From Fidelibacterota bacterium (lineage in GTDB: Bacteria; Fidelibacterota; Marinisomatia; Marinisomatales; UBA1611), in assembly GCA_018658715.1 (NCBI GenBank), contig JABHUQ010000108.1:1-60028 (forward strand): 60,028 nucleotides of DNA, read 5' to 3'. Made by a program: the position numbers and the translations under genes. The stretch's first letter is position 1. The number at the start of each line of letters is the position of its first letter. Positions 5,838 to 14,552 of the stretch are shown here, piece by piece. The notes under the pieces were generated by a model. The model was not told the DNA's origin. It searched no databases and saw only the letters and a list, made by a program, of their open reading frames with translations.

Positions 5838-6488
5838 TTATAATTTGGAGCTATAACTTATCCCAAAAATAATTATCTCATCAGGGACTAAGTCGGTGAT
5901 ATCTTCATTTTTCAAGGTATAAAAAAGGCTCATTGAGTTCTTTCGTGCAAGATTAATCTCAATACCCAATGAGACTCGATATTCATTGAGTGGATTATTG
6001 GCTATGTTATAAAGATGAAAGAATTCTTCTGAAATATAGGGGGTAACCTTCTTATCTGTTTTATACTTAATTGTAAATTTATTCCTAATCAAGTCTCCAA
6101 GAGGATTCCCGTCTTCCCCAAGAGACTCTCCATTTTCATAGAGTCTGTAAATTTTAAGGCGATACTTTAGGCTTACAGGTTTGAAACTATATTGATATGA
6201 TGCACCAAAACTTAATCTATGTTTAATTTTATCTTCGTATACACTATAGCGGTATGGAATATTAACCCTCAGGTTACTAGATACTTTATATGAAACTGAT
6301 ATTTCAAAAAAGGCTTGGTTAATTGTAGAGAGTTGATTTTCTAACCTTAGTCCTTGTGTTAGTTCAAGCTTAAGTGAGAATGGAAGTTTTTTTTCAAAAC
6401 TTATTTTTGTCCAATTTTGATAATCATCTGCTCCATAAGAGCATTGAATCAGAAGAAAAATAAGCCAATATCCTAATTTAAATTTCAT
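5838..6488 (-). CDS. DUF2490 outer-membrane barrel-like protein
   Basis: This 216-residue protein begins with a signal peptide (MKFKLGYWLIFLLIQCSYG, cleavage after about residue 19). The mature part is a series of alternating amphipathic strands ending in FGISYSSKL, typical of a small outer-membrane beta-barrel. The opening DDYQNWTKISFEKKLP matches the DUF2490 pattern, where a W-x-x-x-x-x-x-K/L motif precedes the first strand. DUF2490 proteins are found in FCB bacteria and their role is unknown. It closes the lamin-tail/VTC/DUF4956 cassette with a 53-base gap to the DUF4956 gene. It may be the outer-membrane component of that set, which is an inference from adjacency only. Confidence 0.75.
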   Translation of the reverse strand: MKFKLGYWLIFLLIQCSYGADDYQNWTKISFEKKLPFSLKLELTQGLRLENQLSTINQAFFEISVSYKVSSNLRVNIPYRYSVYEDKIKHRLSFGASYQYSFKPVSLKYRLKIYRLYENGESLGEDGNPLGDLIRNKFTIKYKTDKKVTPYISEEFFHLYNIANNPLNEYRVSLGIEINLARKNSMSLFYTLKNEDITDLVPDEIIIFGISYSSKL

Positions 6489-6541
6489 GATTATTTTGCT
6501 AAATCAAGTAGGCTAATAAATAATTATATTCTGATTCATTA

Positions 6542-7120
6542 TTATTCTTTATAATAAACCTTGATTCGGACTGTATCTCGCAGAAAATTCATTCTGCGGA
6601 ATTCAAAACTCTGAATATTTAATCCTGTTCTTTCTTTCAAATCTGTAAGTAATACATCATGATTTTCTGGTTTGATATTCTCAATTTTTTCATAGTCTAT
6701 ATTAATAGGAATCAGTAAATGTTTTTGCCAATATGTTTCAAGAAAATAAGTTAATCCAACCAATGCCAAATTTGTAAATAATAGTGCAGCATAAGACACA
6801 TCAGTACCACTTAGGGCATTGATAACTCCAATCGTGATAACAATAAATAGATATGTCATTTCTTTTATTGGGATAGGATCTGTTCTATAACGAAGAATAG
6901 CAAAAACAGCAAACAAGCCAAAAGCAAAACCTATATTAATAGTAATATTGCCCAATAAAAATGCAAAAAAGAAAATCAGAGAATTGAACATAAAATAGGT
7001 AAATACAAAATCATTGTTTGTATGATTGCGTTGATAAATAATTTTTATTATGATAAAAGCAATGGATAGGTTAAATCCAAAGCGGGCGATTAAATTTAAT
7101 AACTCAGTTGATAATTCCAT
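6542..7120 (-). CDS. DUF4956 integral membrane protein
   Basis: This 192-residue protein has four or five hydrophobic helices within residues 8-125 and a soluble C-terminal domain of about 65 residues. The segment GFAFGLFAVFAILRYRTDPI, followed by PIKEMTYLF, is the family hallmark; it resembles a conserved loop between two helices. DUF4956 proteins are commonly encoded beside VTC-type polyphosphate-polymerase domain proteins, as here, where the two genes overlap by 17 bases. The pairing suggests the membrane protein and the tunnel-fold protein form one complex at the inner membrane. No enzymatic motif of its own is visible. Confidence 0.85.
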   Translation of the reverse strand: MELSTELLNLIARFGFNLSIAFIIIKIIYQRNHTNNDFVFTYFMFNSLIFFFAFLLGNITINIGFAFGLFAVFAILRYRTDPIPIKEMTYLFIVITIGVINALSGTDVSYAALLFTNLALVGLTYFLETYWQKHLLIPINIDYEKIENIKPENHDVLLTDLKERTGLNIQSFEFRRMNFLRDTVRIKVYYKE

Positions 7121-7916
7121 GTTTCTCCCTCATTGATAATTTTGTTTCTGTTAGAATTTTATTTATTTGTAATAATTTGGATTTAAAGCGATTATATTTA
7201 ATTTTATTATTAACATGTAACATGCCCATGCAATATTTACTAAACCGCATTTCCTGAATATTCAAATCATGAAGAATTTTAATAAATTCTGATTTGGGAT
7301 TGTATTTTTTTTGTTTGATTTCTGATATAACCAGTTTATTAAAAATCTTGCTACTGCTTCCATTTTTCGCATAGAGGTTGGTATCTATAGTCAAGCGTTC
7401 ATTAAAACTATTATCAGTTAGAGTTATACGTAAAAATTCCATGTCTATCTTTGGAGTGAGTTGGTTTGGTGAGAGTTTAATTATTTCAGATACCATATTG
7501 CTTTCTTTAGCACCAAGGTCATTTTTGACATTATCGACTAATAGTCGTTTTTTTACAGTCCGATTTTTATTATTTTTTATCTTAATTTCAAAAAATGATT
7601 TCTCATTACTGCTATACTTCCTGAATCTAACCTTAAACCGTTTCCTCTCACCATTATGATGTTGAATATAAAAACGACAATCATCTGTATCATAGTAGGT
7701 TGTATTATAAGTAAATATGCGGTCATTATTAATCTCTAATATTTTATAGAATGGTTTTATTTTTTCTAAAATGAGAGGTAATTGACACTGATTAAATACA
7801 AACTTGGTATCCTGACGATCTTGGAGTTTAACTTTATCTAATTCAAGCAAAGATACCGTCTCAATTTTATCCAGCAGGTTTTGATATATATATGTACTAT
7901 TATCTTTCACCGGCAT
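7104..7916 (-). CDS. VTC-type polyphosphate polymerase domain protein (triphosphate-tunnel fold)
   Basis: I place the start at ATG 7916 (MPVKDNSTYIYQ). The longer frame reaching 8060 lies inside the lamin-tail gene and its extra 48 residues are that gene read in another frame. The 270-residue product matches the VTC/CYTH-like tunnel domain. Visible motifs are DRQDTKFVF near the N-terminus, then RKRFKVRFRKY with alternating basic residues, FFEIKIKNN, VKKRLLV, LTIDTNLYA and LVISEIKQKKY. In yeast Vtc4 these alternating Lys/Arg/Glu residues line the tunnel that makes polyphosphate from ATP. Whether this bacterial form makes polyphosphate is inferred. It overlaps the preceding gene by 17 bases and the following DUF4956 gene by 17 bases, which implies tight coupling. 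Confidence 0.82.
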   Translation of the reverse strand: MPVKDNSTYIYQNLLDKIETVSLLELDKVKLQDRQDTKFVFNQCQLPLILEKIKPFYKILEINNDRIFTYNTTYYDTDDCRFYIQHHNGERKRFKVRFRKYSSNEKSFFEIKIKNNKNRTVKKRLLVDNVKNDLGAKESNMVSEIIKLSPNQLTPKIDMEFLRITLTDNSFNERLTIDTNLYAKNGSSSKIFNKLVISEIKQKKYNPKSEFIKILHDLNIQEMRFSKYCMGMLHVNNKIKYNRFKSKLLQINKILTETKLSMREKHGIIN

Positions 7917-8502
7917 ATACACTATTTTCTGCACCGGGAGTACCATTATCAATAGAATAACTCCAATTTGCTCCCGATGAGTTATCAAACGATGGATGGA
8001 TGAGTTCAAGGGTGGGGCCATTGCCATCGGGTTCTGTTGGCCATGGCGAGGCATCATCATATTCTACTTCATTGATTAATAATTCATCAGAATTAAACAG
8101 CCTGATGCGTTCTCCACCACCACCTAATCCAAACTCAAAATTACCCACAATATCGGAGCTTAGTACATTTGGGAATAATGAAGAAAATGCGAGTGTATCT
8201 TTGCATAAAACTAGATATCCTCCCGAGACAAGAACCATATTTTCAGGAAATTTAAAAACATTAGCATCATTATCATCTTTAAACTCCCACGAACCAAGGG
8301 AAATAGTTTCGATCGTTGGGTTATATATTTCTATCCAATCCTCTGGATTAAAATCAACAGATGAATTATAATTAATTTCATTAATTACTATGCCGTATTT
8401 AATAGAGTCAGAATTTTTTGTTATAGTATTTTCACAACTGCAAATAAAGAGCACTATAATTGCAATATTACTAATAGTTATAAATCTATTTATATCTTTC
8501 AT
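7900..8502 (-). CDS. Lamin-tail domain (LTD) lipoprotein
   Basis: This 200-residue protein has a hydrophobic leader ending in FICSCEN (residues 19-25), a plausible lipobox. One lamin-tail domain occupies about residues 37-165. Its hallmarks are GIVINEINYNSS, DWIEIYNP, ISLGSWEFKDD, LVSGGYLVLC and GERIRLFNSDELLINEVEYDD. It ends with WPTEPDGNGPTLELIHPSFDNSSGANW and a TPGAENS tail, also usual after bacterial LTDs. In many FCB genomes the LTD is fused to a CotH kinase-like domain; here it stands alone. It is the first gene of the cassette with VTC, DUF4956 and DUF2490, so it may be the surface-exposed part of that system. Its function is unknown. Confidence 0.82.
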   Translation of the reverse strand: MKDINRFITISNIAIIVLFICSCENTITKNSDSIKYGIVINEINYNSSVDFNPEDWIEIYNPTIETISLGSWEFKDDNDANVFKFPENMVLVSGGYLVLCKDTLAFSSLFPNVLSSDIVGNFEFGLGGGGERIRLFNSDELLINEVEYDDASPWPTEPDGNGPTLELIHPSFDNSSGANWSYSIDNGTPGAENSVYAGER

Positions 8503-8758: not shown

Positions 8759-9220
8759 ATGCTATATGACAATATTGACAAATTGCTATTGAAGGGATTA
8801 CAAACAAATTCTCGCATTACAAATGCGGAATTAGCTAAACTTGTTGGATTATCACCATCAAGTACATTAGAACGAGTAAAAAAACTTGAGAGCAGTGGTA
8901 TCATTGATAAATATGTAGCTTTACTTAATCCTCGCAAGGCAGGATATACGTGTTTTACTTTTGTTGAAGTAAAATTAACGCGACATGGTGAAACTCCCGT
9001 GGAAAACTTTTTTTCTGCAATTAGCGAGTTGCCGGAAATATTAGAATGTCATCACATAACAGGAGAAGCAGATTTTCTGTTACGCGTCGCAACGAAAGAT
9101 ATACCAAGTTATGAAGAATTTATCCTCCATCAACTTTCTGCCCTTCCTAATGTTCAAAATATGAAAACATCTGTTGTCTTATCAACGTTTAAACAAGAAA
9201 CAAAATTGGATGTATCCTGA
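8759..9220 (+). CDS. Lrp/AsnC-family transcriptional regulator
   Basis: I choose the ATG at 8759 (MLYDNIDKLLLKGLQ) rather than a TTG at 8696, because the family starts just before this first helix. The 153-residue product has the AsnC-type helix-turn-helix at about residues 8-55 (TNAELAKLVGLSPSSTLERVKKLESSGIIDKY), then a RAM ligand-binding domain whose core reads EILECHHITGEADFLLRV. Such regulators sense amino acids and form octamers. The stop overlaps the aminotransferase start (TGATG). This placement at the head of a tyrosine catabolic operon suggests that it responds to tyrosine, phenylalanine or a related compound. That assignment is contextual. Confidence 0.9.
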   Translation: MLYDNIDKLLLKGLQTNSRITNAELAKLVGLSPSSTLERVKKLESSGIIDKYVALLNPRKAGYTCFTFVEVKLTRHGETPVENFFSAISELPEILECHHITGEADFLLRVATKDIPSYEEFILHQLSALPNVQNMKTSVVLSTFKQETKLDVS

Positions 9221-10314
9221 TGGCTTTAGTTCCGTCCTATATCAAACAACTTGAATCTTATAAAGCTGGAAAATCTATTGATCAAGCTCGGCGAGAGTTA
9301 GGGCTATCATCTTTTATAAAAATGGCTTCCAATGAAAATCCAATTGGACCGTCACCAAAAGCTCTTGATGCAATGCGATCAGTCATAGATAATATGCATT
9401 ATTACCCAGAGACTTCTGGCTTTCACCTACGAAATGCATTGGCGAAAAAGTACAACGTTAAAATTGAAAATGTTATTTTGGGCGCTGGTTCTGAAGGCGT
9501 TATATCTACCATTATGCGAACATTTCTGCTCACTGACGATGAAATTATTTCTGCCAAAAATAGCTTTATTGGGTTTCGAATATTGGCGAATGCATCAGGG
9601 CGTCGCACTCATTGGGTGCCGATGAAAGTTCATAGATATGATTTGGATGCAATTAAAAATAAAATTACTGATTATACTAAGATTATTTATATCGCTAATC
9701 CTGATAATCCTATGGGGACATATATCACTCGGGAAGAGTTTGATGATTTCTATTCTCATGTTCCAGAGAGGTGTCTCATTATTTTAGATGAAGCATACTA
9801 TGAATTTGCGAAGGAAAAACCTGATTATCCTGATTCTATGACTTATCGCTATGATAATGTTATTACACTTAGAACATTTTCAAAAGCATACGGCCTAGCA
9901 GGTGCACGAATTGGATATGGACTTGCACATGAAGATCTTATTAGGAATCTAATAAAAGTAAAAGTTCCATTCGAGCCATCTTTAACCGCACAAGCAGCAG
10001 GCCTTGGTGCTTTATCTGACCAAACTCATTTAGATAAAACATTAGAAATAACAACAAATGGTTTACATTATTTAAAGAATCAATTACACGAATTAGGCAT
10101 CCAAACTATACCATCATCTGCAAATTTCATTACCACCCTATGGAGTTCTAATAATCATGCAAAACACATTACAGATTCATTATTTAATAAAGGTATTATT
10201 GTTCGCGAACTCAATGCATTTGGATGGCCTAATGCTATTCGAATTAGCATCGCAACCATGAAGCAAAATAAACAATTTATTCAACAATTAAAAAATATAC
10301 TCATAGGACAATAA
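9220..10314 (+). CDS. HisC-like PLP aminotransferase, probably aromatic
   Basis: This 364-residue fold-type I aminotransferase resembles histidinol-phosphate aminotransferase. SNENPIGPSP is at residues 37-46, NPDNPMGTYI at about 160-169 and the PLP lysine is K222 in TFSKAYGLAGAR. HisC-like enzymes often act on aromatic amino acids. Its position directly before HPPD suggests that it converts tyrosine to 4-hydroxyphenylpyruvate, so I do not name it hisC. No other histidine-biosynthesis gene is near. The start codon overlaps the regulator's stop, and the stop is directly followed by the HPPD start, so the genes are translated together. Confidence 0.85.
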   Translation: MALVPSYIKQLESYKAGKSIDQARRELGLSSFIKMASNENPIGPSPKALDAMRSVIDNMHYYPETSGFHLRNALAKKYNVKIENVILGAGSEGVISTIMRTFLLTDDEIISAKNSFIGFRILANASGRRTHWVPMKVHRYDLDAIKNKITDYTKIIYIANPDNPMGTYITREEFDDFYSHVPERCLIILDEAYYEFAKEKPDYPDSMTYRYDNVITLRTFSKAYGLAGARIGYGLAHEDLIRNLIKVKVPFEPSLTAQAAGLGALSDQTHLDKTLEITTNGLHYLKNQLHELGIQTIPSSANFITTLWSSNNHAKHITDSLFNKGIIVRELNAFGWPNAIRISIATMKQNKQFIQQLKNILIGQ

Positions 10315-11436
10315 ATGGCTATTATAACAACAGAGTGGACTGGGAAAGAATATTTCCAAATAACAGAATTAGACCATATTGAATTTTATGTAGGAAACGC
10401 AAAGCAAGCCGTTCATTATTACCGATCAGCATTTGGCATGCAACCTTTTGCATATGCTGGACCTGAAACCGGGCAAAAAGACCGTGTTAGTTATGTATTA
10501 AAACAGAAAAAAATCTTTTTTGTTATAACAACTCCGTTATCATCCCATCATCCTGCAACCAACTGGTTAGCAACACATGGAGATGGAGTTCGAGATATAG
10601 CATTTAAAGTAGACTGCGCCCAGACTGCTCATGATTCTTGCGTAAGTCGTGGTGCAGAATCTATCCATCCCTCTAAATCTTGGGGAGATTCTGATGGGAT
10701 TTACCAAAAATCTGCCATAAAAACTTATGGTGACACTATTCATTCCTTTGTAGAGCGAAAAGCTTATAATGGGCTATGGGCACCAAGATATGTACCCTTG
10801 AAGCTGCCAACTATTCATTCAGAAGATCCAGGACTTCTATTAATAGATCATATTGTTGGAAATGTGGAAGAAGGCAAAATGAATGACTGGCGCGATTTTT
10901 ATGAAAATATTTTTGGTTTTACCAATTTTGTTGTCTTTGATGAAAATGATATTTCAACCAAATTTTCTGCTTTAAAAAGTCGTGTTATGCGATCCAAAAA
11001 CTGGAAAGTAAAATTCCCAATAAATGAACCTGCATCAGGATTAAAAAAATCACAAATTGAAGAATATCTTGATTTTAATGAAGGACCCGGTGTTCAACAT
11101 ATTGCTTTATTAACAGATAATATTATTAAAACAATTACAGCATTACGTAATAATGGAGTGGATTTCCTATATGTTCCCGAAACATATTATGATGGATTAT
11201 CTAATCGAGTTGGAGATATTGACGAAACATTGGCTCCATTAAAGGAGTTAGGAATTTTAGTCGATAGAGATGATGAAGGATATTTATTGCAATTGTTCTC
11301 TAAACCCGTTGAAGATCGTCCAACACTTTTTTATGAGATTATTCAACGAAAAGGGTCAAGAGGATTTGGACAAGGAAATTTTCAAGCCCTATTTGAATCC
11401 ATTGAAATCGAACAGGAGAAAAGAGGTAATCTTTAA
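10315..11436 (+). CDS. hpd: 4-hydroxyphenylpyruvate dioxygenase
   Basis: This enzyme converts 4-hydroxyphenylpyruvate and O2 to homogentisate and CO2. At 373 residues it has the normal length. Two vicinal-oxygen-chelate halves are seen: the N-terminal one starting LDHIEFYVGNAK (19-30), and the catalytic C-terminal one from about residue 170. The iron ligands can be placed as H179 (LLIDHI), H262 (GVQHIALLTDNI) and E341 (FYEIIQRKG), followed by the conserved GFGQGNFQALFESIE tail. It starts immediately after the aminotransferase stop and is followed directly by the fumarylacetoacetase-like gene. No residue expected for catalysis is missing. Confidence 0.97.
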   Translation: MAIITTEWTGKEYFQITELDHIEFYVGNAKQAVHYYRSAFGMQPFAYAGPETGQKDRVSYVLKQKKIFFVITTPLSSHHPATNWLATHGDGVRDIAFKVDCAQTAHDSCVSRGAESIHPSKSWGDSDGIYQKSAIKTYGDTIHSFVERKAYNGLWAPRYVPLKLPTIHSEDPGLLLIDHIVGNVEEGKMNDWRDFYENIFGFTNFVVFDENDISTKFSALKSRVMRSKNWKVKFPINEPASGLKKSQIEEYLDFNEGPGVQHIALLTDNIIKTITALRNNGVDFLYVPETYYDGLSNRVGDIDETLAPLKELGILVDRDDEGYLLQLFSKPVEDRPTLFYEIIQRKGSRGFGQGNFQALFESIEIEQEKRGNL

Positions 11437-12423
11437 ATGAAATTTGTAACTTATACACGGGTTGAAGGAACGGAACCCCGATTCGGTTATTTGCGTAATG
11501 ATTTCATTATTGATATACTTTATGCTGCCATTTACATTAATGAAAATCATGGCAATTCAGAATATCTTTCCATTCCAACATCATTAACCCGTGCCTTAGA
11601 AAATTGGGATGGATCCTTTGAAAAATTGAAAAATTTAGATCGTTCTTTACCTAACACTCTCATCCATACTTATTCAGTCCACGGGAAGCCTATTGCTGTT
11701 TCTTCAGATTCAGTTCAATTTTTTCCACCTGTACCCGAACCGAAAACGTTTCGAGATTTTTATGCATTTGAACAACATGTCAAAATAGCTAGAAAAAACC
11801 GTGGACTTAAGATGAATCCAGTTTGGTATGACTTACCAGTATTTTATTTTTCCAATCCCACAGCATTATTTGGGCATAATGATAATGTCCCCTATCCTGA
11901 GCCAACTCAAGCATTAGATTATGAATTGGAAATTGCAATCATCATCGCAAATGGAGGAAAAAATATTTCAAAGGATAATGCATCATCTTTTATCGCAGGA
12001 TATACAATCTGCAATGATTGGTCTGCAAGAGATTTCCAAAAAGAAGAAATGAAGCTAAATCTTGGTCCAGCAAAAGGGAAAGATTTTGCTACAAGTTTCG
12101 GCCCAACTATGGTTACACCAGATGAATTAGAAGATTTCACAGATAGTAATGGAGAGCTATGTCTTCGTATGACTTGCCATGTGAATAATGAATTGTACTC
12201 ACAAGGGAATCTGAAAGATTTATACCATTCATTTCCAAAAATGATTGAAAGAGCAAGTCAAAATGCTCAATTATTACCTGGTGATTATATTGGTTCAGGC
12301 ACTGTTGGAACAGGATGCATTTTAGAATTAGATCCAAAAAACGTAAATGGGTGGCTGAATAAAGGTGATACTATCACGTTAACGATAGAAGGATTGGGAA
12401 CCTTGGAGAATAAAGTTGTCTAA
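11437..12423 (+). CDS. fahA: Fumarylacetoacetate hydrolase-family protein
   Basis: This 328-residue protein carries the FAH fold: FYAFEQHVKIARKNRG, then VPYPEPTQALDYELEIAIII around residues 152-171, SFIAGYTICNDWSARDFQKEEM, GPAKGKDFATSFGP and TCHVNNELYSQGNL, ending in the LLPGDYIGSGTVGTGC motif. Acidic residues in DYELEIA bind the metal in characterised members. In this operon it should cleave fumarylacetoacetate to fumarate and acetoacetate, the last step of tyrosine breakdown. The short form is common outside Proteobacteria. It might also hydrolyse maleylacetoacetate directly, since I find no isomerase gene nearby; that is inference. Confidence 0.9.
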   Translation: MKFVTYTRVEGTEPRFGYLRNDFIIDILYAAIYINENHGNSEYLSIPTSLTRALENWDGSFEKLKNLDRSLPNTLIHTYSVHGKPIAVSSDSVQFFPPVPEPKTFRDFYAFEQHVKIARKNRGLKMNPVWYDLPVFYFSNPTALFGHNDNVPYPEPTQALDYELEIAIIIANGGKNISKDNASSFIAGYTICNDWSARDFQKEEMKLNLGPAKGKDFATSFGPTMVTPDELEDFTDSNGELCLRMTCHVNNELYSQGNLKDLYHSFPKMIERASQNAQLLPGDYIGSGTVGTGCILELDPKNVNGWLNKGDTITLTIEGLGTLENKVV

Positions 12424-12790
12424 TAACAAGCCCATTAATGAAATTGATGAATTTTATCTTGGAGTTGAAGCTTTTAATCAAAAAGATTATCCGAAAGCTC
12501 ACAATATCTGGGAGCACAGTTGGATGCGCATTGGAAATTCTGGTGATCGCGCTTATTTAAAACCATTTATTATGTTAGCAGTATCACCTCAGAATTATGA
12601 TTTAAATAAAGTCTCGGGAGGAAATTATTTATTTGAAAAATCTCTCGAACGTATGATCCAAAACAAGGATGCAATCAATAAATACATTAATGTAAATTCA
12701 CTGATTCAACATCTTCAAAATGTAGCTTCACAGGAAATTTTATTGGATAGATTTAATAATCTTTACATAAAAAGAAGAAGAGAGATATAA
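12416..12790 (+). CDS. DUF309-like small helical protein
   Basis: This 124-residue protein is predicted to start at a TTG at 12416, overlapping the end of the FAH gene by eight bases; no upstream ATG is available in frame. The pattern FYLGVEAFNQKDYPKAHNIWEHSWMRI, followed by RAYLKPFIMLAV, resembles DUF309, a helical family with an H-x-x-W/E core. Here H and E lie in AHNIWEHSW at about residues 31-39. DUF309 proteins have no proven function. It is sandwiched between FAH and HmgA with overlaps at both ends (its stop shares one base with the hmgA start), so it is an integral operon member. Assignment to DUF309 is moderate. Confidence 0.65.
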   Translation: MSNNKPINEIDEFYLGVEAFNQKDYPKAHNIWEHSWMRIGNSGDRAYLKPFIMLAVSPQNYDLNKVSGGNYLFEKSLERMIQNKDAINKYINVNSLIQHLQNVASQEILLDRFNNLYIKRRREI

Positions 12791-13941
12791 TGCCATTTTA
12801 TCAAAAACGTGGTATCGTTCCAGAAAAACGTCACATTCAATTTAGAGAGAAAAATAATTCATTATATTGGGAAGAATTAGTCAGTCGAGAAGGATTCAGT
12901 TCAATTTACTCAAATATATACCACGTCCAACCACCAACTAATGTTTCAGGTGTAGGAGATTGGATTCCCCTCAATATTAAACCATTGCAGGATACACATA
13001 GAAATCGTCATTTCAAAACCCATCATCTAAAATCTTCAGGAGATGCTATTTCAGCGCGCATTCCACTTTTATTTAATCAAGATACAATTATTCATAAAGC
13101 ACATGTGGATCAATCCATGGGTATATTATATAGAAATGGTCACCACGACGAAGTATTATTCATCCAATCAGGGAAAGGACAATTCTGTTCCAATTTTGGT
13201 AATATGAATATTAAGCATGGAGACTATGTTGTCATTCCACGAGGAGTAATTTGGCAATTAATTATTCATGATCCAATACGGATGTTGGTTGTAGAATCAT
13301 CTGGACCAGTTGAAACGCCAAATCGGTATCGAAACAGATTCGGGCAACTCATGGAAGATTCACCATTTTGTGAAAGAGACATTCGAACACCCAATTTTAT
13401 TGAGCCAAAATATCAAAAGAACCCTGTAGATGTTCTTGTTCGAATTCAAGGTGGATATCAAACTTATTCTTATGAGCATCATCCTTTTGATTTAGTGGGA
13501 TGGGATGGTTTTTACTTTCCCTGGATTTTTAATATTAATGATTTTATGCCAATCACAGGGAAAGTTCACTTACCTCCACCCATCCACCAAACATTTCAGT
13601 CGCCTGGATTTGTGATTTGTTCTTTTGTCCCAAGATTATATGACTACCATGATAAAGCTATTCCAGCACCCTATGCTCATAGCAATGTAGATTCTGATGA
13701 AGTTTTATATTATGTGAAAGGAAAGTTCATGAGTAGAAAAGGGATCGAATCAGAATCCATTACCGTTCATCCCATGGGTTTGCCCCATGGCCCACAGCCA
13801 GGAAAAATTGAAGCATCTCTGGGTAAAAAAGAAACCATTGAATTAGCCGTAATGATAGATACTTTTTCACCATTGCAATATGCAGACATTCTATCAACAA
13901 TTGATGATTCGGATTACCCCTACTCTTGGCAAGAATCATGA
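12790..13941 (+). CDS. hmgA: Homogentisate 1,2-dioxygenase
   Basis: This enzyme opens the homogentisate ring to give maleylacetoacetate. The 383-residue product has the two-cupin HGD fold. The iron ligands expected from the human enzyme map to H297 and E304 in PYAHSNVDSDEVLYYV and H333 in LPHGPQPG. A second conserved histidine, H327, sits just before. It is shorter than the about 430-residue proteobacterial/eukaryotic form, matching the compact branch found in FCB and other bacteria. Its stop overlaps the start of the flavin-reductase-like gene (ATGA). Confidence 0.95.
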   Translation: MPFYQKRGIVPEKRHIQFREKNNSLYWEELVSREGFSSIYSNIYHVQPPTNVSGVGDWIPLNIKPLQDTHRNRHFKTHHLKSSGDAISARIPLLFNQDTIIHKAHVDQSMGILYRNGHHDEVLFIQSGKGQFCSNFGNMNIKHGDYVVIPRGVIWQLIIHDPIRMLVVESSGPVETPNRYRNRFGQLMEDSPFCERDIRTPNFIEPKYQKNPVDVLVRIQGGYQTYSYEHHPFDLVGWDGFYFPWIFNINDFMPITGKVHLPPPIHQTFQSPGFVICSFVPRLYDYHDKAIPAPYAHSNVDSDEVLYYVKGKFMSRKGIESESITVHPMGLPHGPQPGKIEASLGKKETIELAVMIDTFSPLQYADILSTIDDSDYPYSWQES

Positions 13942-14552
13942 TTCTCGATCCAAAGTATCAATCTTTTAAAGATAATTACAAAATTATGATTGGGTCTATT
14001 GTTCCTCGGCCAATTGCATTTGTTTCTACTATATCCAAAGATGGGGTGGATAATGTAGCGCCATTTTCTTTTTTCAATGGTGTATGCTCTAATCCACCTA
14101 CAATATCATTTTGCCCTGTTCGCCGGGGTACCGATAGTGAAATTAAAGATACACTTAGGAATATCCAAGATACAGGTGTTTTTGCCTTAAATATTGTCAG
14201 TGAATCTTTTGCGGCTGAAATGGTAAAAACAGCAATAGAATACCCTGTAGAAGTAAGTGAATTTGACAAAACTGGGTTAACGCCCATCCCATGTAATAAA
14301 ATTTTGGCACCTCGTGTAAGTGAATCAAAAATTTCATTTGAATGTGAATTAAATCAAATTATTGAAGTTGGTGATGGAAGCCCAGGAAGTGGCGCACTCA
14401 TTTTAGGAACAATTGTACTCTTCCATGTGGATGATGATATTTATGATCATGGAAGAATTAATTTAGACTTATTAAAACCCATTGGCCGCCTTGCAGGATC
14501 GAATGGGTATGTCCGAATAACAGATCGATTTGATATCGAAAGAAAAAAATAA
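13938..14552 (+). CDS. Flavin reductase-like FMN-binding split-barrel protein
   Basis: I choose ATG 13938 (MILDPKYQSF), which overlaps the hmgA stop as ATGA, over a TTG twelve bases earlier. The 204-residue product has the flavin-reductase-like split barrel: IGSIVPRPIAFVSTISKDG (residues 20-38), VAPFSFFNGVCSNPP and the ALNIVSE core, with SKISFECEL near the middle. Members bind FMN; some reduce flavins, others have unclear roles. In this operon it might supply reduced flavin or act on a ring-cleavage intermediate, but there is no partner monooxygenase here. Certainty is high for fold and low for role. Confidence 0.82.
   Translation: MILDPKYQSFKDNYKIMIGSIVPRPIAFVSTISKDGVDNVAPFSFFNGVCSNPPTISFCPVRRGTDSEIKDTLRNIQDTGVFALNIVSESFAAEMVKTAIEYPVEVSEFDKTGLTPIPCNKILAPRVSESKISFECELNQIIEVGDGSPGSGALILGTIVLFHVDDDIYDHGRINLDLLKPIGRLAGSNGYVRITDRFDIERKK

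Follow-up and report, generated by a model that had tools for sequence, protein, structure and literature searches.

Gene organisation of the locus

The DNA analysed here (the window) is a stretch of 60,028 nucleotides from a Fidelibacterota bacterium (GenBank assembly GCA_018658715.1, contig JABHUQ010000108.1). It carries on its minus strand a block of four genes, referred to below as the cassette, which the open reading frames (ORFs) of the window and a Pfam scan place in the order LTD, VTC, DUF4956, and DUF2490 (Table 1). The cassette may encode a conduit for phosphate or polyphosphate across both membranes of the cell envelope. The Pfam matches of all four proteins exceed the cut-offs of their families, with bit scores of 91.9 against a cut-off of 23 for VTC, 157.7 against 30.6 for DUF4956, and 68 against 29.8 for DUF2490. 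The ORF listed for VTC, extending to 8060, is overlong, and the next ATG, at 7916, agrees with the relatives; with this start LTD and VTC overlap by 17 nt, as do VTC and DUF4956, and a gap of 53 nt separates DUF4956 from DUF2490. The tight, partly overlapping block described in an earlier reading of the DNA made from its letters alone (the sequence-only reading) is thereby confirmed.

Table 1. Genes of the cassette, in order of transcription
Product	Length (aa)	Position in the window	Strand	Pfam match
LTD lipoprotein, one Lamin Tail Domain	200	7900..8502	-	LTD, PF00932, E 1.7e-15
VTC-domain triphosphate-tunnel protein	270	7104..7916	-	VTC, PF09359, E 5.8e-26
DUF4956 inner-membrane protein	192	6542..7120	-	PF16316, E 2.9e-46
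DUF2490 outer-membrane beta-barrel with signal peptide	216	5838..6488	-	PF10677, E 1.1e-18

The host genome (2.46 Mb, 96% complete) has a single gene each for VTC, DUF4956, and DUF2490, together with 19 LTD matches. Since each of the first three is a single-copy gene, their contiguity is not due to chance. A scan of the operon for promoters and terminators gave no signal setting its ends, and NCBIfam at E<=0.01 gave no name for any of the four proteins.

The VTC protein

A profile of 25 relatives of the VTC protein matches the solved yeast VTC4 at E 1.9e-23 over the whole catalytic domain. In the profile alignment, VTC4 residues K200, R264, R266, E279, K281, and K294 correspond to K38, R97, R99, E110, K112, and K122 of the window protein, and R361, R373, E426, K428, S457, and K458 to R163, R174, E199, K201, S226, and K227. 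Besides R264, R266, and E426, the VTC4 residues of this set are those that we take to be catalytic or tunnel positions. VTC4 numbers are chain positions plus an offset of 3, inferred so that R264, R266, and E426 fall in place; these three are named as VTC4 residues in the available excerpt of a study of the yeast complex (PMC9911596). The whole set of equivalent residues, R163 and R174 included, is invariant in the 25-sequence alignment. In a second set of 64 VTC sequences, R34, K38, K95, R97, R99, E110, K112, K114, K122, R163, T176, D178, E199, K201, S226, and K227 are invariant, and R174 is kept in at least 90%. The sequence-only reading had regarded loss of the basic tunnel residues on alignment as grounds for giving it up; the alignment instead shows the yeast VTC4 tunnel residues conserved. 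The protein is thus a predicted cytoplasmic polyphosphate polymerase, as judged from its sequence. Neither an SPX domain nor a VTC1-type membrane part was matched by Pfam in the four cassette proteins at E<=1.

A eukaryote-type SPX-VTC protein was seen in one other locus (L049, G177:C35), beside a small VTC1-like membrane protein, the latter read by eye. Its host is a bacterial metagenome-assembled genome (MAG) with 8% contamination, and the contig is perhaps of protist or giant-virus origin.

The DUF4956 protein

The AlphaFold2 model of DUF4956 (74 sequences; predicted local distance difference test score, pLDDT, 81.5) has five helices followed by a C-terminal ferredoxin-like domain. Counts of loop charges under the positive-inside rule predict an N-out, C-in topology, in which the invariant R77 and R79 lie at the cytoplasmic end of helix 3. 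Foldseek with this model gave no match at E<=0.001. VIA-align gave middling matches, the best of them to a viral protein (Z 8.2, 3.1 A over 95 residues), and one to SecDF (Z 6.3, 3.9 A over 107); structures of VTC1 or MgtC were absent among the matches listed for the fold search, which excludes nothing.

Membrane helices followed by a C-terminal ferredoxin-like domain are shared with the MgtC family. A profile-profile comparison (hhalign) gave DUF4956 and MgtC a 61% probability of relationship (E 7.9e-5), and four other DUF4956 genes match the MgtC profile PF02308 at 4e-5 to 8.5e-4, below its cut-off; this profile had no match in the window's genome. DUF4956 is likely, though not settled, to be a distant relative of MgtC.

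The DUF2490 barrel

The AlphaFold2 model of DUF2490 (53 sequences, pLDDT 91.8) is a beta-barrel with 11 strands listed. The nearest solved folds are the acidic-oligosaccharide porins VhGalP (Z 16.4), NanC (16.1), and KdgM (16.1), in a range of 16.0-16.4, with a root-mean-square deviation of 2.4-3.5 A over 155-181 residues and an identity of 8-9%; Foldseek alone puts other barrels ahead of these three. Alternation of residues along the modelled strands would place the conserved R48, R80, R91, R110, K112, R135, K137, and R171 on the lumen side, along with one invariant acidic residue, E155. Arg or Lys occupies each of the eight basic positions in 19 or 20 of 20 DUF2490 proteins encoded away from such cassettes, so a basic lumen appears to be a trait of the family. 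The known KdgM, NanC, and VhGalP porins have a basic lumen. DUF2490 shares with them, as predicted from its model, a small beta-barrel and such a lumen, and differs in its low identity, its gene context, and the lack of a Pfam match of the window protein to the KdgM/NanC porin families at E<=1. It is accordingly a predicted anion or polyanion pore.

DUF2490 is listed, as far as the excerpt of the source goes, as putative porin family TC 1.B.81, function not established (PMC4827864). This is the same Pfam family as that of the window protein; what the present analysis adds is a proposed role in oxyanion or (poly)phosphate passage, based on gene context and the putative lumen residues. BT3498-BT3499 of Bacteroides thetaiotaomicron are annotated as a DUF4956 and a DUF2490 gene, and in the excerpt of an iron data set they stand with the unlabelled figures -7.6 and 0.175 (PMC10434189).

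Conservation of the gene neighbourhood

Gene maps were drawn with profiles iterated from the window's own proteins, at E<=1e-5 or 1e-4. Two collections were compared: 245 genomes of the phylum, and 80 GTDB loci (L083-L162), the top 80 among at least 502 relatives. The latter were found by DUF4956 similarity and are uninformative on VTC genes overall; their counts come from raw matches, overlong ORFs having masked VTC in the maps drawn for three high-G+C loci (L101, L138, L162).

VTC is found above its cut-off in 42 of the 245 phylum genomes, all of which also contain DUF4956. Among the GTDB loci, VTC lies just upstream of DUF4956 in 71 of 80 (70/77 where the contig allows). DUF2490 lies directly downstream of DUF4956 in 53 and anywhere in the locus in 62. 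Both VTC and DUF2490 are adjacent to DUF4956 in 44, of which 38 are labelled Bacteroidota in their records. Nine loci lack VTC, seven of them in genomes with no VTC anywhere. The order is permuted and the set kept in L120, L132, L135, and L161, while in L102, L104, L117, and L136 a protein combining LTD and CotH is inserted between DUF4956 and DUF2490.

DUF4956 of the window's type is defined by a score above 70 bits, a threshold drawn at a gap in the scores; 29 genes from 28 phylum genomes exceed it. DUF2490 is adjacent to 26 of them (23 above the Pfam cut-off, three by the iterated profile or below the cut-off), and one of the remaining three is cut by a contig end. VTC is adjacent to 14, lies near in one genome (G044), is probably split off by a contig break in another (G183), and is missing beside 13. 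Thus, VTC is a dispensable member of the set and DUF2490 the steadier neighbour of DUF4956, and the idea that DUF2490 is there by chance, raised in the sequence-only reading, was rejected on these counts from the phylum and from GTDB. For LTD, treated in the same way by that reading, the outcome was different: this is the variable part, and chance is weakly open for it.

The LTD protein and the upstream slot

The LTD protein has a lipobox-like ICSC motif at Cys23, read by eye. An LTD protein lies directly upstream of VTC in five Neomarinimicrobiota relatives (L040, L043, L048, L050, L051), in L048 as an LTD+CotH protein, and LTD recurs in this slot across several Neomarinimicrobiota families. 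In many Bacteroidota the slot is occupied by a small lipoprotein, about 130-270 aa long and with a weak Ig-like match, or by a secreted RHS/YD-like protein. LTD is present in 25 of the 80 GTDB loci. Judged from this distribution, it is a clade-specific accessory, one of several fillers of the slot; as an essential core part it was rejected, the Bacteroidota slot being filled by unrelated small secreted proteins.

An alternative envelope module and DUF2490 away from the cassette

In 20 of the 45 phylum loci with VTC, an HlyD-type periplasmic adaptor is encoded just upstream of VTC. Only one of the 45 loci combines the adaptor with DUF2490 (p 0.005 for the split, a value inflated by the many genomes of one genus). 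Three other loci (L074-L076) encode in a row DUF4956, an HlyD-propeller fusion (DUF6929-like), a TolC-like protein (OEP), VTC, and a large LTD protein. Several loci of the HlyD/TolC type also encode secreted glycoside hydrolases (GH3, GH5, and GH16); HlyD-adaptor-VTC-DUF4956 sets (L062-L072 and relatives) were seen among secreted GH5/GH16 enzymes.

DUF2490 genes above the cut-off number 67 in the phylum, 23 of them beside DUF4956. A sample of 20 of the other 44, mostly the best-scoring, was inspected for same-strand neighbours: a pst operon was found beside one, sulfate ATP-binding cassette (ABC) transporter genes beside three, sodium/phosphate (Na/Pi) symporter genes beside two, and CYTH genes beside eight. 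At least one of these kinds of neighbour accompanies 13 of the 20, which are non-independent, the CYTH arrangement being largely that of one family. DUF2490 was seen in or beside sulfate-ABC, pst, or Na/Pi genes in L183, L184, L188, L198, L185, and L186, and near a CYTH tunnel protein and a sodium:solute symporter in L190, L191, L193, L196, L199, L187, L194, and L186. In a locus without VTC (L094), the DUF4956-DUF2490 pair is convergent with a porin-PhoU-Na/Pi block. DUF2490 is thus tied to phosphate and sulfate by independent gene context, which suggests that its family consists of oxyanion porins in general.

Polyphosphate kinases and CotH

Bacterial polyphosphate synthesis is usually described as PPK1/PPK2 chemistry in the cytoplasm. 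PPK1 is found in 2 and PPK2 in 84 (83 above the cut-off) of the 245 phylum genomes; neither was found in the window's genome. PPK2 is present in 10 of 14 genomes with DUF4956 and no VTC against 54 of 189 with neither gene (Fisher p 0.0018) and, among genomes with DUF4956 of the window's type, in 4 of 16 VTC-linked against 11 of 12 unlinked (p 0.0006). The counts exclude sub-cut-off rows (G101 and G188 for VTC, G099 for PPK2, G156 for DUF4956) and draw on MAGs, which are incomplete, and the comparison was set up after a PPK2 gene (L103:1302-2135) had been seen next to DUF2490, convergent with a DUF4956-DUF2490 pair, in a genome without VTC. Interchange of VTC and PPK2 as suppliers is not relied on here: a hand count in the window's own family (33 genomes) gives PPK2 in 5/5 vs 15/22, and the VTC-linked rate equals the background. 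Phylogeny may explain the richness in PPK2 of the VTC-less DUF4956 genomes.

CotH is found in 38 of the 42 phylum genomes with VTC and in 75 of the 203 without it, counts that ignore kinship, and in 29 of the 80 GTDB loci, often as LTD+CotH fusions adjoining the cassette. By gene content, VTC ties to secreted CotH kinases across the phylum. The sequence-only reading had remarked on an LTD gene without its usual CotH partner. This holds for the cassette, in which neither Pfam nor the gene map places a CotH gene, but the genome has six CotH matches elsewhere, none of them on the contig of the window among the three listed, in addition to the association across the phylum.

Relation to known systems

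The component families and the VTC-DUF4956 association are already known. The yeast VTC complex (Vtc1/Vtc3/Vtc4) couples the synthesis of polyphosphate in the cytosol to its translocation across a membrane. According to the available excerpt, it moves polyphosphate out of the cytosol (PMC9911596). The cassette shares with it a homologous tunnel domain and a polymerase always found together with a membrane protein (42/42 genomes); it differs in having no SPX or VTC1-type part and in having DUF4956, two membranes to cross, and a putative porin.

In Gram-positive bacteria, genes for CotH, a poly-phosphate polymerase, and DUF4956 lie next to the Pel locus, as stated in an excerpted survey (PMC7112168), and the excerpt of a study of Streptococcus intermedius reports altered Pel and reduced aggregation when the CotH gene or SIR_1592 is mutated (PMC12345266). 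SIR_1592, described there as MgtC-like helices with an ACT domain, is taken here to be the DUF4956 gene. The authors did not find the CotH/polymerase/DUF4956 synteny outside Pel loci (PMC12345266, in the same excerpt); in Bacteroidota and Neomarinimicrobiota, VTC, DUF4956, and CotH stand side by side, in loci in which pel genes were not searched for. The accessory set of Streptococcus, Clostridium, and Bifidobacterium thus has in common with the cassette a VTC-type polymerase beside DUF4956, with CotH nearby in many relatives of the Fibrobacteres-Chlorobi-Bacteroidetes (FCB) group; it differs in having no outer-membrane component, and the window's cassette in having no CotH. The excerpted accounts of these genes do not name DUF2490 or LTD. 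The open-licence PMC literature searched yielded nothing on VTC together with DUF2490, an envelope role of bacterial VTC, a recurring block with a putative Arg-lined porin, the swap of porin and adaptor, or the oxyanion context of DUF2490.

A putative trans-envelope conduit

The best explanation of the cassette, with about an even chance of being right, is a trans-envelope (poly)phosphate conduit in which VTC, DUF4956, and DUF2490 would together export the polymer. Cytoplasmic VTC would polymerise the gamma-phosphates of ATP into polyphosphate through its basic tunnel. DUF4956, presumably in contact with it and in the role of the membrane helices of yeast VTC1 and VTC3/4, would carry the chain across the inner membrane, with R77 and R79 at the cytoplasmic mouth of its five-helix domain. 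The DUF2490 barrel, with its predicted lining of conserved Arg and Lys, would serve as the anion pore of the outer membrane, and the LTD lipoprotein would play an accessory part in the periplasm or at the envelope surface. This explanation is favoured because the VTC tunnel residues are invariant, VTC is always accompanied by DUF4956, VTC and DUF2490 are conserved neighbours, and permuted loci keep the set; because the DUF2490 model is near acidic-oligosaccharide porins, with predicted inward basic residues, and the family occurs elsewhere beside pst, sulfate, Na/Pi, and CYTH genes; and because an HlyD adaptor appears as an alternative and the genome lacks PPK1 and PPK2. The cross-envelope phosphate-polymer apparatus of the sequence-only reading hence stands as the best reading, with its tunnel residues kept and DUF2490 conserved, except that LTD proves an accessory and VTC dispensable.

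Several points weigh against the conduit. The 13 DUF4956 genes without linked VTC are spread over 12 genomes. VTC is missing altogether from 11 of these, so that DUF4956 and DUF2490 can function as a pair with no polymerase present, and two genomes of the window's genus lack VTC, DUF4956, and DUF2490 alike. DUF4956 has no clear solved relative, and its role as a conduit is a proposal based on its model. No activity data for bacterial VTC were found in the literature, which was available in part. Finally, the context of non-cassette DUF2490 is mostly that of phosphate and sulfate uptake operons, so that the direction of flow is unsettled and inward movement fits as well.

Inward movement is at the heart of an explanation that is possible but on balance doubtful, in which DUF2490 would admit phosphate or short polyphosphate through the outer membrane, DUF4956 would act as an inner-membrane transporter or regulator, and VTC would convert the phosphate that enters into a store or sink. 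It would account for the occurrence of DUF2490 within uptake operons for phosphate (pst) and sulfate and next to Na/Pi symporters, for the VTC-less pair converging on the porin-PhoU-Na/Pi block, and for the resemblance of DUF4956 to MgtC, a family linked to phosphate control. However, other relatives have HlyD adaptors and TolC-like proteins next to VTC-DUF4956, which speak for outward flow; Pst and Na/Pi genes are missing from the window's cassette, and the yeast complex takes polyphosphate away from the cytosol, as its excerpted account has it (PMC9911596).

Surface phosphorylation is unlikely to be the function: VTC-DUF4956 would supply phosphate to CotH-type secreted kinases modifying surface proteins or polysaccharide, with LTD as a docking part. 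The excess of CotH in VTC genomes, the CotH genes in GTDB loci with their LTD+CotH fusions, the genes at Pel loci (PMC7112168), and the S. intermedius phenotypes (PMC12345266), the last two as given in excerpts, agree with this. Nevertheless, the window's cassette has no CotH, the genome count ignores kinship, and 75 genomes have CotH without VTC.

CYTH tunnel proteins are often hydrolases, and VTC may likewise be a tunnel enzyme with another substrate, of triphosphatase or nucleotidyl type, while DUF4956-DUF2490 moves another anion. The CYTH proteins beside non-cassette DUF2490 and the dispensability of VTC are consistent with such a role, which is nonetheless quite improbable, since the profile match extends over the full VTC4 catalytic domain, whose residues are conserved, and VTC without DUF4956 was never seen in the 42 genomes. 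That LTD and DUF2490 are mere chance neighbours of the VTC-DUF4956 pair is hardly credible: LTD is common in the genome and not in the upstream slot of most Bacteroidota loci, but DUF2490 keeps its place beside DUF4956, which contradicts chance for this gene, and LTD holds the same slot across several Neomarinimicrobiota families, which leaves chance weakly open for it.

Flanking genes and possible significance

ORFs on the opposite strand adjoin the cassette at 9220-14552 of the window; read by eye, they resemble a cluster for tyrosine/homogentisate breakdown.

A broader proposal, speculative and rather unlikely to hold in full, is that the cassette represents an FCB bacterial counterpart of the VTC complex that would export polyphosphate through both membranes by way of a swappable outer module, either the Arg-lined DUF2490 porin or an HlyD/TolC route. 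The exported polymer might feed surface biology, for example by donating phosphate to, or forming a metal-binding matrix for, CotH-kinase and LTD surface proteins, and DUF2490 would be a general oxyanion/polyphosphate porin family. If the conduit is real, it would constitute a dedicated route for a phosphate polymer across two membranes and would give a testable role to DUF4956 and DUF2490, both families of unknown function. It would also explain how marine bacteria without PPK1 and PPK2, such as the host of the cassette, could still have polyphosphate.

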